Source of the DNA: an uncultured Poribacteria bacterium
GTDB lineage: Bacteria > Poribacteria > WGA-4E > WGA-3G
Length of the DNA: 64,000 bases
Reading direction: 5' to 3'
NCBI GenBank assembly: GCA_951812525.1
Contig: OX638316.1
Location: 2,722,506 to 2,786,505, forward strand
Shown: in pieces, positions 1,880-63,394 of the stretch
Numbering within the stretch: position 1 is the stretch's first letter
Layout of the letters: the number at the start of each line of letters is the position of its first letter
Position numbers and translations under genes: made by a program
Notes under the pieces: model-generated
Databases searched by the model: none
Told to the model about the DNA's origin: nothing
Seen by the model: the letters and a program-made list of their open reading frames with translations, nothing else

Positions 1880-3169
1880 ATGGCAGCAAATCTCGCTATA
1901 TGTGGTGGTAAACGGACTGTCCCTGATGGGCTAATTCAACCGTGGCCACAAGTTACCCAATCCGACAAAGACGCGATTGCCGAGGTTATCGCCTCCGAAA
2001 AAATTACCGAACAGCAACGGGTTCAATCTGAAGGTCTTGCTAACGAATGGGCGGAATACATGGATGTCCAGTATTGCATCCCAGTCAACAGCGGAACCGC
2101 TGCGTTACATTTATGTGTCGCAGGTGTCGGCATTGAGCCGGGTGACGAAGTCATCATTCCCGCCTTCACTTTCTGGGCAACAGCCGCCGCCGTCCTCCAT
2201 CACAACGCTATCCCTGTCTTTGTTGATATTGATCCAGTCACCTACTGTATCGACCCAAATGAGATCGAAGCTAAGATCACCGAGAGGACGCGCGCAATTG
2301 CGCCGGTTCATATTCATGGGATGCCTGCCGATATGGATCCTATTCTGGAGATCGCAAAAAAGCACAACCTGAAAGTTATTGAGGATGTCGCACAGGCACA
2401 CGGTGCGCGCTACAAGGGTAAACTTTGTGGTGCATTTGGCGATGCCGCAGGATATAGCACGCAAGCCTCTAAGACGCTGAGTAGCGGTTGTCAAGGTGGT
2501 TTGTTCACAACGAATGATGAGCAGACTTACAAACGTGCAGCGTTGTTGCAATATTTCGGCGAAATCGTTGTGCCGGGCAGTGAAAGGGAAGAACAGGAAT
2601 ATAATGCTTACGGACTTGGATGGATGTATCGCGGCGATATGTTCAGTCAAGCGTTCATCCGTAGCCAACTCAAACGCCTTGACGAGAACAACACCCAACG
2701 CGTCGAAAATTGTCAATATCTCACGATGCATCTGAACGAAATTGAAGGCATTGAGACCCCTGTTACACCAGAAGGGTGTGAACCGGTGTATTACAACTAC
2801 GTCATCGGTTTTGATCCGACAGCGTTGGGACTCGGCATCTCCGCCCGCACCATGCGTGAGAAAGTGCAAGCCGCGCTACGTGCTGAAGGTGTGCCAACCG
2901 GACAGTGGCAACGGCTCCCTGTCCCATCTCAAGAGATTTTCCAGAACCGAATCGGCTACGGCACAGGCTGTCCGTGGCGATGCAATAATTCGACGGTTGA
3001 GTATAAAACAGAGGACTATCCTCGTGCTGTTGAATTCATTGATTCTCACTGTTATATCTTCGACGTCAATCCACCCAACGACTTTGAGTTAATGTCCTAT
3101 TACGTCGAAGCGTTCCACAAGGTGATGGATCAACTCGATGCTGTACTTGAAGTGGCCGATGCTGCTTAA
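1880..3169 (+). CDS. DegT/DnrJ/EryC1/StrS-family PLP aminotransferase
   Basis: A 429-residue member of the PLP-dependent sugar aminotransferase fold. Visible are the cofactor-phosphate motif NSGTAALHL (about residue 70), PAFTFWATAAAV, the Asp that contacts the pyridine nitrogen in VIEDVAQAHGA (D169), and the likely Schiff-base lysine K198 in STQASKTLSSG. The family transaminates keto-sugars or cyclitols; the substrate cannot be read from sequence. AGGGGGT precedes the ATG. It lies 39 bases after gltX. The last codons lie in a 36-bp tandem duplication (see repeat at 3159). Confidence 0.88.
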   Translation: MAANLAICGGKRTVPDGLIQPWPQVTQSDKDAIAEVIASEKITEQQRVQSEGLANEWAEYMDVQYCIPVNSGTAALHLCVAGVGIEPGDEVIIPAFTFWATAAAVLHHNAIPVFVDIDPVTYCIDPNEIEAKITERTRAIAPVHIHGMPADMDPILEIAKKHNLKVIEDVAQAHGARYKGKLCGAFGDAAGYSTQASKTLSSGCQGGLFTTNDEQTYKRAALLQYFGEIVVPGSEREEQEYNAYGLGWMYRGDMFSQAFIRSQLKRLDENNTQRVENCQYLTMHLNEIEGIETPVTPEGCEPVYYNYVIGFDPTALGLGISARTMREKVQAALRAEGVPTGQWQRLPVPSQEIFQNRIGYGTGCPWRCNNSTVEYKTEDYPRAVEFIDSHCYIFDVNPPNDFELMSYYVEAFHKVMDQLDAVLEVADAA

Positions 3170-3240
3170 TAACGAACGGTAGGCGAGATTTCCCATGCTG
3201 CTTAATAGCGAACGGTAGGCGAGATTTCCCAATCTCGCTT
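3159..3240. repeat. 36-bp tandem duplication leading into a hairpin repeat
   Basis: The 36-base unit at 3159-3194 recurs at 3195-3230 with one mismatch (AACGAACGG versus AGCGAACGG). The unit contains the last codons and TAA of the DegT-family gene plus the left arm of a dispersed hairpin element. Only the second copy continues into the right arm AATCTCGCTT (3231-3240), pairing with AGGCGAGATT (3217-3226). Confidence 0.85.
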
Positions 3241-35533: not shown

Positions 35534-35650
35534 ATGAAAGTCCGACCTTCTGTTAAAAAGATGTGTAACCAGTGTAAAATTATTAAGCGGAAAGGAATTA
35601 TCCACGTCATTTGTCCTTCAAACCCGAAGCATAAGCAACGGCAGGGATAA
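35534..35650 (+). CDS. rpmJ: 50S ribosomal protein L36
   Basis: A 38-residue zinc-ribbon protein that reads [20 protein letters not shown] then [18 protein letters not shown]. The C/C/C/H zinc ligands are intact. It has one extra residue (CPSNPKH for the usual CxNPKH). It starts 25 bases after secY and matches the usual secY-rpmJ-rpsM order. Confidence 0.95.
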
Positions 35651-35758
35651 TCCGCTTCACACCTTTTGCATCCAGTCCCGCTGCTACCAAAATTGCTCGG
35701 TGAACTGACACTATTCGGTTAACCTTAAACTTGGAGCAAGGACAAAAAGGAGAGAGCC

Positions 35759-36151
35759 ATGGCAAGGATCGCAGGGGTTGATTTGCCCCGAAACAAACGA
35801 GTAGATATCGCACTGACAGCGATTTACGGCATCGGCCGATATACGGCATCACAAATCGTTAACGACCTCGACATTGATCCAGGGAAAAAAGTTGACATCC
35901 TCGCCGAAAACGAGGTAAGTCAGCTCCGAGACAAGATTTTGGACTATAAAATCGAGGGAGACTTGCGCCGTGAGGTTGACCAGAATGTTAAACGCCTGAT
36001 GGACATCAACAGTTATCGTGGCTTACGCCACCGTCGGCAGTTACCTGTTCGCGGTCAGCGCACAAATACGAACGCTCGCACCCGTAAGGGGAAAGCACGA
36101 ACGATTTCCGTCGGTAGAAAAGCCAAAGAGGCAGGACGCAAGAGCGGATAG
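35759..36151 (+). CDS. rpsM: 30S ribosomal protein S13
   Basis: A 130-residue head protein: [51 protein letters not shown] and [22 protein letters not shown] precedes the ATG. A repeat-filled spacer follows before rpsK. Confidence 0.97.
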
Positions 36152-36170
36152 TCCACTTAGTAGTTGTCAA

Positions 36171-36370
36171 GTTATCGGTTGTCAGTAGGTGAGGTTCCCG
36201 AGGCAGCCTGTGTATACGTGAATCTCTTGACTGGAAGCTGGCGACTGCCGACTGACAACTCATAAAAATAAGAATCGTTGTAGTTATCGGTAGGCGAGGT
36301 TTCTAACCTCGCTTGTGGACGCGAGAATCTCTTGACTGCCGACTGACAACTCATAAAAAGGAGAATCGTT
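36171..36370 (+). repeat. Duplicated hairpin-repeat element inserted between rpsM and rpsK
   Basis: Two related units lie head to tail: 36171-36280 and 36283-36370. Both start GTTATCGG, contain a GTAGG(C/T)GAGGTT element, GAATCTCTTGACTG, GACTGCCGACTGACAACTCA, and end with AAGAATCGTT or GAGAATCGTT. In the second unit GCGAGGTT (36294-36301) pairs with AACCTCGC (36305-36312). The end of unit 2 carries the AAGGAG used by rpsK; unit 1 has AATAAG there. This is the same family as repeats in the accessory spacers. Confidence 0.85.
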
Positions 36371-36742
36371 TTGCGTGGAAGAAGAAGAGAACGCAAGAAC
36401 GTACCAGAAGGGATAGCGCATATACAGGCTACCTTCAATAACACAATTATTACGATCACAGACTTAAACGGAAACACCGTTGCTTGGGCGAACGCTGGAA
36501 TGACTTTCACCGGTTCACGAAAGTCCACCCCTTTTGCCGCGCAGCAGACCGCAGAGGCGTGCGCACGCAGAGCAATGGATCATGGTATGAAACGCGTAGA
36601 AGTCAGAGTCAAGGGTCCTGGGTCCGGGCGAGAATCCTCTATACGAGCACTTGCTGCAGCCGGACTGGAAATTACCTTAATGAAAGACGTGACTCCCATA
36701 CCACATAACGGATGTCGTCCCCCTAAGAGACGACGGGTTTGA
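36371..36742 (+). CDS. rpsK: 30S ribosomal protein S11
   Basis: A 123-residue platform protein: [58 protein letters not shown] and [19 protein letters not shown] 36371 starts it, seven bases after AAGGAG, which is supplied by the end of the upstream repeat unit. Confidence 0.97.
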
Positions 36743-36751
36743 GGAATACGA

Positions 36752-37387
36752 ATGAGCAGATATTTAGATTCAGTCTGTAAATTATGCAGACGGGAAGGCG
36801 AAAAACTTTTTCTCAAGGGGCGTCGATGCAACGGACCCAAATGTTCTTTTGAGCGCCGTAGCTACCCACCTGGACAGCATGGACAGACACCGCCACGACG
36901 CGGGCGCGAAAACAACTATCGGAGACAGCTGCGCGCCAAACAAAAAGTGAAACGTACCTATGGCGTTTTTGAGAAACAGTTTCGGAACTATTATTTTAAA
37001 GCCGCTCGCCAAAGCGGTATCGCTGGTGAGAATTTAATCAGCTTCCTTGAATGCCGCCTCGACAACGTCGTTTACCGACTCGGATTCGCAACATCTCGGA
37101 ATCAGGCGCGTCAACTCGTCAAGCATAATCACTTTACTGTTAATGGCAAGCGGGTTAACATTCCTTCCTATATAGTACAAGTCGGCGATGTCATCGCACC
37201 GCGCGAGCGGAGTCGAAATCTCGCCACTATTCTGGAAGCTTTAGAGTATGCACAGCATCGAGGTGCACCGGAATGGCTTGATATTGATCCAGAGAAAGCG
37301 GAAGGACGTGTTCAGAGTGCACCTGTGGTAGAACAGATCTCCACAGACCTTGAAACACAGCTCATCATTGAACTTTACTCCAGATAG
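36752..37387 (+). CDS. rpsD: 30S ribosomal protein S4, zinc-binding form
   Basis: A 211-residue primary assembly protein. The N-terminal Cys cluster (C9, C12, C26, C31 in VCKLCRREGEKLF and RRCNGPKCSF) marks the zinc form; the S4 RNA-binding domain reads ECRLDNVVYRLGFATSRNQA and VNGKRVNIPSYIV. It starts nine bases after rpsK. Confidence 0.97.
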   Translation: MSRYLDSVCKLCRREGEKLFLKGRRCNGPKCSFERRSYPPGQHGQTPPRRGRENNYRRQLRAKQKVKRTYGVFEKQFRNYYFKAARQSGIAGENLISFLECRLDNVVYRLGFATSRNQARQLVKHNHFTVNGKRVNIPSYIVQVGDVIAPRERSRNLATILEALEYAQHRGAPEWLDIDPEKAEGRVQSAPVVEQISTDLETQLIIELYSR

Positions 37388-37463
37388 GCACATCCGCCCA
37401 TACCGTGTGTGTTATTAAATGCAGGGTGCCATAAATAACGGCACTCTTACAACACAGTTATAT

Positions 37464-37491
37464 CATATTTTACCCACACGGGTAAAATATG
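37464..37491 (+). repeat. Perfect 12-bp inverted repeat ahead of rpoA
   Basis: CATATTTTACCC (37464-37475), loop ACAC, GGGTAAAATATG (37480-37491), with no mismatch. No T-run follows immediately (TCTTTGCTTT), so an intrinsic terminator is unlikely; an operator, processing site or translational control hairpin is possible. Confidence 0.75.
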
Positions 37492-37548
37492 TCTTTGCTT
37501 TACATTTAAAATACTCGCAAAGATTACAGCACACGAGGAACGCAGGGC

Positions 37549-37629
37549 ATGTCCAAACATACGCTACCTACTAAAACTTATGAGCCAATACGCACACGGC
37601 GTCCGCTGCTCAGTTTGCACGCGTTCTAA
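37549..37629 (+). CDS. Candidate 26-residue small ORF before rpoA
   Basis: ATG at 37549 is preceded by GAGGAA and opens 26 codons ending TAA (MSKHTLPTKTYEPIRTRRPL then LSLHAF). No known family is recognised and a 26-codon frame can arise by chance; listed only because it has a ribosome-site-like sequence and fills an unusually long spacer. Confidence 0.2.
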   Translation: MSKHTLPTKTYEPIRTRRPLLSLHAF

Positions 37630-37659
37630 CACTAGTTTTAATCCTATAGGAGGAAATTA

Positions 37660-38679
37660 ATGATAAGGTCCGAGCTCGTGATACCTGAGAGGCTGAAAAC
37701 TGATATCGAATCTTTACAGCCGAATTACGCAAAGTATACCGCTGAACCCTTTGAGCGCGGATTTGGAACAACCCTCGGCAATTCTTTGCGTCGAGTCCTC
37801 CTTTCCTCAATCAAAGGTGCAGCGATTACGGCTGTTCAAATCGAGCAAGTCCGGCATGAATATGACACAATCCCTGGCGTGCTCGAAGATGTAGTACAAA
37901 TTATTCTTAATCTCAAAGAGGTTCGTCTAAATATCGCTGACGACGCTCCGATGGTACTCACGCTCCACGCTGAAGGCTCTGGAGAAGTTACTGCCGCTGA
38001 CATTCGTCCTAATGCAAACGTTCAGATTATCAACCCTGACCAGCATATCGCTACCCTTGATGAGTGCGAAGGGCTAGATATGGAAATTCACGCACAAACA
38101 GGACGTGGATACTCTCTCGCTGAAGAGCACAGACCAATAAACCACCCAATCGGGTTGATCCCTGTTGACGCAAAGTTCTCACCCGTTGAGAAAGTTAATT
38201 TCTGGGTAGAAGAGACCCGTGTCCGAGACACGACCAACTTTGACAAACTCAACCTCGAAGTCTGGACTGATGCCACTATTACAGCGAAGGAAGCGGTCAC
38301 ACGGGCAGCGGAAATTTTGCTACAACAACTTGAACTCTTTACGGAATTCGATGAAAATTATATCGAGCCTGAGCCTGAAATTGATGAGGCAAAACTGCGA
38401 CGCAACCGATACTTAGCTAAACCTGTCGCAGAACTTGAACTCTCAGTTCGAGCTAGCAACTGTCTCGAAACTGCAAATATTAAAACCATCCGAGAACTCG
38501 TCACAAAAGAGGAAAAGGATATGTTGGAGTACAAGAATTTCGGACGCACCTCGCTGAACGAAATTAAAGAACAACTCGCCAATATGGGACTTTCCCTCGG
38601 AATGAATCTCGACGATATGGACGACGCGGACATCGACGAAGAAAATATGGCACAAGAATCCTTGCAACCCCCTATGTAA
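37660..38679 (+). CDS. rpoA: RNA polymerase alpha subunit
   Basis: A 339-residue subunit. The assembly domain has EPFERGFGTTLGNSLRRVLLS and VRHEYDTIPGVLEDV; the C-terminal DNA-binding domain has the block VAELELSVRASNCLETANI and LNEIKEQLANMGLSLGM, after an acidic linker, with an acidic tail. AGGAGGAAATTA precedes the ATG. Position between rpsD and rplQ is canonical. Confidence 0.98.
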   Translation: MIRSELVIPERLKTDIESLQPNYAKYTAEPFERGFGTTLGNSLRRVLLSSIKGAAITAVQIEQVRHEYDTIPGVLEDVVQIILNLKEVRLNIADDAPMVLTLHAEGSGEVTAADIRPNANVQIINPDQHIATLDECEGLDMEIHAQTGRGYSLAEEHRPINHPIGLIPVDAKFSPVEKVNFWVEETRVRDTTNFDKLNLEVWTDATITAKEAVTRAAEILLQQLELFTEFDENYIEPEPEIDEAKLRRNRYLAKPVAELELSVRASNCLETANIKTIRELVTKEEKDMLEYKNFGRTSLNEIKEQLANMGLSLGMNLDDMDDADIDEENMAQESLQPPM

Positions 38680-40645: not shown

Positions 40646-40676
40646 TGCTCTATTTCCTCCATTTTCCAAAAATCTG

Positions 40677-40735
40677 TAGGAGAGGTATGTGACCTGGATT
40701 TTTTTCTTTATGTAGGAGGGGTTTGTAACCCCGAT
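40677..40735. repeat. GTAGGAGGGGTTTGTAACCCC hairpin repeats
   Basis: A good copy at 40711-40734 has GGGGTT and AACCCC arms around TTG-rich loop; a degraded copy (GTAGGAGAGGTATGTGACC) starts near 40677. The family recurs at 60242 and 60283. The copies lie between the lipoprotein gene and the beta-barrel gene. Confidence 0.75.
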
Positions 40736-40760
40736 ACTCTCCCCAATTTGGGTTACATTA

Positions 40761-41372: not shown

Positions 41373-41775
41373 ATCTCTTTCTCCTTTGGATTTATCCGTA
41401 GCTTTTGACTATTATAGCGTATTAACCCTGATATGTCCAATCAAACCACGGCACAGTTTGCCCGGTTTCTGTGAAGTTAAGGCACAAAATAGTCCATAGA
41501 GCATCCCAATCAAATCAAATAACGAGAACTGATCGAAAATAGTTGACCAATAAAGAAAATTAAACAATCCTGAATCCGGTAGGCAGTTTCCAAATTATGC
41601 TACTAAACATAATTTGTCTTAATTTTACATTCCTTGCCTTAACACTCCTACCTTATTCCGCTTTCAAATCCGCCGTAGGTTGGGTAGAGCGCAGCGAAAC
41701 CCGACTATATACTAACAACTTTATTGACCTCGGTTTTCCTTTGACACCGTCTCAATACCGTGCTAAATTGATACC
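41373..41775. other. Gene-free spacer between divergent genes
   Basis: The spacer holds a 9-bp perfect inverted repeat CAAATTATG (41591-41599)/CATAATTTG (41608-41616), which could be an operator or terminator, and a copy of the GTAGGTTGGGTAGAGC...GCGAAACCCGAC element at about 41671-41705. No coding frame is convincing. Confidence 0.6.
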
Positions 41776-59672: not shown

Positions 59673-59880
59673 TGATAGTCTCCTTCGTTGTAGAATTTTC
59701 TGTGATAATCGTTCACATAAGCCGAAGTTTACCACGAATCAAGGTGGTTGTCAATAGAAACGCCTAAATTTTTAGTACACACCACCATCGAATCCTATAA
59801 CTATCACATCCGCCGTAGGTTGGGTAGAGCGGAGCAAAACCCAACGCCGCATTAGCGAATCCTGATTCAGACAAAAAAAC

Positions 59881-60241: not shown

Positions 60242-60310
60242 TGTAGGAGGGATTTGTAATCCCGACTTTCTCAGTATCCTATTGTAGGAGGGATTTGTAA
60301 TCCCGACTTT
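60242..60310. repeat. Tandem pair of GTAGGAGGGATTTGTAATCCC hairpin repeats
   Basis: Copies at 60242-60269 and 60283-60310, 41 bases apart; GGGATT pairs with AATCCC in each, and both are followed by CGACTTT. Confidence 0.85.
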
Positions 60311-60431
60311 TTCACTGCTGATTGCTGACAGCCGACTGCTACATTCCACTTTCCCCTTGACAGATTCCACCAAAGTCGCTACTCTCAAGGAAAACCATTT
60401 CACTTCACGGTGTGAAAGCGAGCAACCGACC

Positions 60432-63120: not shown

Positions 63121-63394
63121 CTCAGTAGGTGCGGTTTTCAACTGCACCAGTCCTCTCTAACAAGCAAACTACACTAAATCTCCCGTAGGTTGGGTAGAGC
63201 ATAGCGAAACCCAACTTCATACCACGGACGTTGGCACAGAGGAGATTCCAAAATCTGCGCAATCTGCGCAATCCGTGTAATCCGTGATTCAGACAATCCA
63301 CCAACCGCCAACTTCCAATCGCGACACATTTTGATTGGCAACTGTGAAACAAACCTGCTATACTTATCTGTAAGATTCAAATTAAAAATCTACA
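63121..63394. repeat. Spacer made of dispersed repeats before ecfT
   Basis: Contains GTAGGTGCGGTTTTCAACTGC (63126 on), the GTAGGTTGGGTAGAGC...GCGAAACCCAAC element (63183-63215), four 9-base units AATCTGCGC, AATCTGCGC, AATCCGTGT, AATCCGTGA at 63252-63287, and a TTCAGACAATCCACCAACC tail. No gene fits. Confidence 0.75.

Follow-up and report, generated by a model that had tools for sequence, protein, structure and literature searches.

A tandemly duplicated heptamer-armed hairpin repeat between rpsM and rpsK in a poribacterial ribosomal operon

Two units between rpsM and rpsK

The window, the whole 64,000-nucleotide stretch analysed here, belongs to a poribacterial genome (G000) that consists of one 5.06-Mb contig. 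The upstream gene of the junction is rpsM (positions 35759–36151, forward strand), an open reading frame that encodes 30S ribosomal protein S13 and matches NCBIfam TIGR03631 with 163.8 bits, above the cut-off. The downstream gene is rpsK (36371–36742, forward strand), which encodes 30S ribosomal protein S11, starts with TTG and matches NCBIfam NF003698 and TIGR03632 above their cut-offs. The spacer between them is 219 nt long and is almost wholly made up of two forward-strand units lying head-to-tail, the upstream copy U1 (36160–36279, 120 nt) and the downstream copy U2 (36280–36370, 91 nt). Each unit runs from GTAGTT to CGTT, and the terminal CGTT of U2 lies directly 5' of the rpsK start codon. 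The two units align head-to-tail over their whole length and match at 77 of the 85 aligned bases, besides gaps; the alignment score of 50 compares with a maximum of 13.8 in 1000 shuffles. This bears out the duplication proposed by an earlier sequence-only reading. That reading had placed the units at 36171–36280 and 36283–36370; there are indeed two, and their limits are better drawn as given above.

U1 consists of a left arm, a degenerate core, a right arm and a copy of the rpsK leader. Its core (36185–36228, forward strand) contains a decayed GTAG palindrome (GTAGGTGAGGTTCCCGAGGC...CTCTT) and is identical to the 44-nt core of U2 at 31 positions, so that 13 of 44 differ. The 37-nt tails are far more alike (35/37). 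The U1 tail (36243–36279, forward strand) carries AATAAG at 36267–36272, and the U2 tail (36334–36370, forward strand), comprising the right heptamer arm and the rpsK leader, carries the ribosome site AAGGAG at 36358–36363; this is the sole difference between the tails. The leader is shared with relatives, and a AAAGGAGAAYCGTT-like sequence precedes rpsK in nearly all congeners. The rpsK ribosome site has thus been copied and its upstream copy has decayed, as had been claimed.

The duplicated sequence is confined to this place. The window contains exactly two occurrences of GACTGCCGACTGACAACT, where chance would give 0.01 approximate matches, and pattern and BLAST searches of the whole genome find exactly two perfect matches to the tail motif CATAAAAANNAGAATCGTT, both at rpsM-rpsK. 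Tandem repeats commonly trouble assembly, and an assembly or read artefact has to be weighed here. About 15 substitutions and a length difference of 29 nt separate the copies, and the genome is a single contig, which together make an assembly duplication very unlikely. Single-copy homologues in related genomes also align to the units, and we give an artefact almost no credence.

Architecture of the unit

The outer arms of both units are degenerate 7-nt repeats of the AACTGAY type (GACTGCCGACTGACAAC), inverted on the two sides. Because of this inversion each unit folds as a hairpin; as RNA of the coding strand, U1 and U2 each fold with a z score of -2.6. The inverted arrangement is a property of the family, since opposite-orientation arm tokens are found upstream of the right arm in 9 of 23 elements of the window's genome and in 17 of 30 elements from four congeners; the downstream control gave none (0/23 and 0/30). 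In one element (L306) the terminal inverted arms are 21 nt long and 90% complementary.

The core between the arms holds a GTAG-tagged REP-like palindrome, which is intact in U2 (GTAGGCGAGGTTTCTAACCTCGC, 36290–36312, forward strand; identified from the genome pattern matches and the BLAST list) and decayed in U1. The pattern GTAGGCGAGGTTN{1,5}AACCTCGC has 50 matches in the genome and none in the control. The genome also contains five Y1 transposase genes, two of which score above the RAYT cut-off. One of these (L212, G000:C1:2370060-2370389; NF047646, 128.4 bits) has GTAGGCACGGTTTCCYAACCGTGCC REPs clustered on both sides. These flanking REPs read GTAGGCACGG...CCGTGCC and have the same layout as the U2-core REP (GTAGGCGAGG) with different stem letters, GCACGG in the flanks versus GCGAGG in the core. 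From sequence likeness, this RAYT might recognize the U2-core variant as well. The second RAYT gene (L213, G000:C1:4154672-4155010) is surrounded by many TCCCGAACAAGTTCGGG palindromes, which have a GCGTCC side and form a different palindrome family.

Other small repeats are present in the window. Positions 3159–3231 hold a 36-bp tandem duplication with a GTAGGCGAGATTTCCC REP-like palindrome. Paired GTAGGAGGGATTTGTAATCCCGAC palindromes at 40675–40742 and 60242–60314 represent a second GTAG-type repeat family, and a third repeat family, GTAGGTTGGGTAGAGCG..AGCGAAACCCAAC, has three copies (41661–41705, 59801–59845 and 63171–63215).

The repeat family across the genus

The arm repeat family is genus-specific and genome-wide. 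The strict arm form RACTGAYAACYGAYAAC has 14–312 matches per genome, both strands summed, in all 36 congeners searched, with 0–1 in the control, and is almost absent from the searched genomes of the same order or class. Direct heptamer arrays of the AACTGATAACTGATAAC type are common in the genus. Heptamer tokens occur at rpsM-rpsK in 28 of 34 genus genomes, the highest count of the 28 junctions from fusA to rplQ, followed by rpsE-rplO (14/34), rpmJ-rpsM and rplW-rplB (10 each). Part of the high count at rpsM-rpsK may reflect common descent and not repeated insertion. The sequence-only reading had taken the unit for a member of a family that otherwise sits in accessory spacers; the family is real and genome-wide, and its confinement to accessory spacers does not hold, as it occupies many ribosomal-protein junctions and rpsM-rpsK most often of all.

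Spacer length across the genus varies most at rpmJ-rpsM (standard deviation 75), rpsD-rpoA (72) and rpsM-rpsK (66). The rpmJ-rpsM spacers (12–342 nt) and rpsD-rpoA spacers (194–520 nt) are long and variable for a ribosomal operon, and some of them hold other small palindromes, for example TCTCACTGCGAGGC.

Two other orthologous sites, L306 and L240, were compared in 4–5 congeners, and the element is present, altered or absent. At these sites (L306 with orthologues in G000, G024, G028 and G031) either the arms are kept around an entirely different loop or there is no element at all. A clean empty site with a target-site duplication was sought at the two loci and none was found; unrelated filler stands there instead. 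These alignments suggest loop exchange between relatives. A further reading, tentative and on balance unlikely, is that the heptamer-armed hairpins form a distinct genus-specific non-autonomous class of elements. Their arms would persist at orthologous sites and their loops would trade cargo such as REPs and other small palindromes; their placement directly before ribosome sites would also have been co-opted, giving transcribed spacers by which the translation of neighboring ribosomal genes is uncoupled or insulated.

The junction in relatives

We read the rpsM-rpsK spacer in those congeners that were available and in relatives at order and class level, and placed the genomes on a tree of 13 concatenated genes. 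In this tree, which leaves out G060, the window's clade is ((G012,G031),(G028,(G000,(G035,G024)))). One homologous unit (113–127 nt) is present in G031, G060 and G028. G031 and G028 span the deepest split of the clade (G060 being outside the tree). In the sister genomes G024 and G035 the unit is replaced by another hairpin (195 and 235 nt) with arms of the same family; the 160-nt spacer of G012 is unrelated. Most other congeners carry heptamer-armed hairpins of other types. In G008, G017 and G023 the spacer is 38 nt long and without a hairpin, and these three genomes are nested among hairpin-bearing ones, so that the short spacer looks like secondary loss. It retains one heptamer remnant (TGTTAACTGACMACC; L190, L189 and L191) and is possibly a deletion scar. 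In the same three genomes rpsK starts with GTG, not TTG.

Spacer length ranges from 38 to 339 nt within the genus versus 48–82 nt in order-level genomes, and no operon spacer of the order-level relatives contains heptamer tokens. Read most simply, the repeat would have been acquired at the base of the genus or close to it and later replaced or lost in some lineages and duplicated in that of the window; whether the repeat at a given junction was inherited or re-inserted is judged in most cases by parsimony. Zero, one and two units are thus all found among relatives at this junction, and the spacers of genomes lacking the repeat differ by more than drift.

Possible role of the hairpin

The recurrence of the repeat at this junction would also fit a selected RNA element, for example an insulator, a processing site or an enhancer of rpsK translation, tuned by two copies. 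The rpsM-rpsK spacers fold more stably than shuffles (mean z -3.3), and the repeat is found there in 28 of 34 congeners, the top of the 28 junctions. Among the 23 distinct loci of the family in the window's genome, eight have a right arm that is followed within 70 nt by a ribosome site and a start codon, compared with 4.3% for random positions. Translational regulation has moreover been suggested for the related TAACTGA repeats (MacGregor 2015, PMC4679880). However, G008, G017 and G023 do without the hairpin inside the hairpin-bearing part of the tree, and the genus shows no conservation of core or loop sequence. The covariation term is only -0.12 kcal/mol (4 sequences), and a search of positions 35600–37700 for Rfam families returned zero matches at E values up to 1. 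With no Rfam match, weak covariation and the hairpin absent in three congeners, a structured regulatory RNA was dropped as the main reading. For the rpsK ribosome site, accessibility is predicted at 0.37, hardly different from 0.34 with shuffled spacers, which rejects masking of the site by the hairpin. Other operon spacers also fold more stably than shuffles, to a lesser degree than rpsM-rpsK. No promoter- or terminator-like site was found in the junction region, and an internal promoter or terminator was accordingly dropped. Overall, we consider a selected element unlikely, and a tolerated passenger is better supported than a regulatory role. The hairpins lie in a presumably transcribed spacer and the rpsK site is not predictably hidden, which makes a near-neutral change probable.

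Origin of the second unit

The two copies are most probably the product of a local tandem duplication of a resident hairpin repeat together with the rpsK leader, with near-neutral decay of the upstream copy. The local origin follows from the tail, which is absent elsewhere in the genome and therefore points to tandem duplication and not to a new transposition. The features of the copies are those that a tandem duplication with upstream decay predicts. The U2 core shares 80% identity with the single-copy core of G031 and 84% with that of G028, while U1 and U2 cores are 70% identical to each other; the long left arm of U1 aligns with the left arm of G031 (27/34); and the U2 tail occupies the ancestral position before rpsK.

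We infer the following course. The ancestor of the clade that includes the window would already have had the hairpin repeat, with AACTGAY arms and a GTAG REP-like core, at rpsM-rpsK. A tandem copy of everything from the left arm through the last base before the rpsK start codon would then have arisen on the branch leading to the window; slipped-strand mispairing or unequal recombination, favored by the short repeats and the hairpin, is the likeliest mechanism. The downstream copy U2 would have retained the working ribosome site, and U1, freed from constraint, would have diverged in its core and changed AAGGAG to AATAAG. Arm lengths would have shifted by about one heptamer at a time; the observed arm-length differences include 7 and 14 nt, compatible with slippage in heptamer steps. 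The divergence between the copies is uneven (2/37 in the tails versus 13/44 in the cores). One simple old duplication would not predict tails so much more alike than cores, and later homogenization of the tails or a two-step duplication may be needed. As G024 and G035 lack this unit type, the duplication may have either preceded or followed their split.

Transposition of a REP/hairpin element by a RAYT, to a site beside the resident one, is another possible source of the second unit. GTAG REP-like palindromes are abundant in the genome, and of the five Y1 transposase genes two exceed the RAYT cut-off, one of which has REPs of the same layout on either side. Nevertheless, the copied segment takes in the rpsK-specific leader (AGAATCGTT), whose tail is unique to this junction genome-wide, and U1 and U2 match head-to-tail along their entire length. 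Copying of the rpsK leader led us to reject transposition as the source of U2, and we regard it as quite improbable. It could still explain how the REP-like core first reached the ancestor of the clade. The earlier suggestion of a mobile or recombining element therefore stands in part: the duplication is local and tandem, its copied tail occurs only here, and it is no evidence of transposition, while mobility of the REP part is plausible given a RAYT gene flanked by similar REPs.

A parallel to the local tandem duplication is found in the congener G021 (L304:262-566; G021:C63:73561-73865), where a heptamer-armed unit is tandemly triplicated. The 101-bp units are 99–100% identical and the last one ends at the ATG of an RNase J-like gene. 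This case is independent and much younger.

The usual view of the S10-spc-alpha ribosomal operon is that it is compact and conserved. In this case, one genus shows 0, 1 and 2 repeat copies at a single internal junction, including a natural duplication of a working ribosome site. The repeat has been gained, lost, replaced and duplicated there among relatives, in agreement with the proposed tolerance in an essential operon, and the family keeps reshaping that operon, apparently without harm. The range of states at this junction can be compared to learn what amount of intergenic invasion is tolerated by an essential operon, and if hairpins of this kind ever gain a role.

Comparison with known repeats

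The arms resemble the TAACTGA heptamer direct repeats of Beggiatoaceae, Cyanobacteria and Bacteroidetes (MacGregor 2015, PMC4679880). Those repeats are intergenic, often precede start codons, occur also within Beggiatoaceae ribosomal-protein operons, and change copy number in 7-nt indels between close cyanobacterial strains. The heptamer here (AACTGAT/TAACTGA) shares the intergenic position, the location before start codons and inside ribosomal-protein operons, and the 7-nt steps. Exact-register direct arrays are also common in the genus, U1 and U2 themselves having only degenerate heptamers. In contrast, the published units are nearly all direct (one indirect in BOGUAY), have no predicted fold and rarely adjoin canonical ribosome sites, whereas here the heptamer is variable, often forms inverted hairpin arms with cargo in the loop, and is often followed by a good Shine-Dalgarno site. 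The likeness is one of features and not of demonstrated common origin; it adds an inverted-arm version to these unexplained repeats.

Compared with the MITE-like bacterial repeats ERIC, RUP and NEMIS (named in PMC3733652), the units are similarly short, non-coding, intergenic and foldable as RNA hairpins with terminal inverted arms. They differ in that neither a target-site duplication nor a parent transposon was identified here, and in that the loops vary between copies and between orthologous sites.

The core resembles the GTAG-tagged REPs associated with RAYT transposases (Di Nocera 2013, PMC3733652; Nunvar 2010, PMC2817692). It is likewise a palindrome of 20–40 bp with GTAG at one end and tens of copies, and the same genome has a RAYT gene flanked by REPs of like layout with other stem letters. 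Unlike those REPs, the palindrome is nested within the arms of another repeat, in a ribosomal operon. The unit is thus a composite of two known repeat types, heptamer-repeat arms and a GTAG REP-like core; its ingredients are known, and the new part is their combination with inverted arms, present in three copy-number states at a single essential junction.
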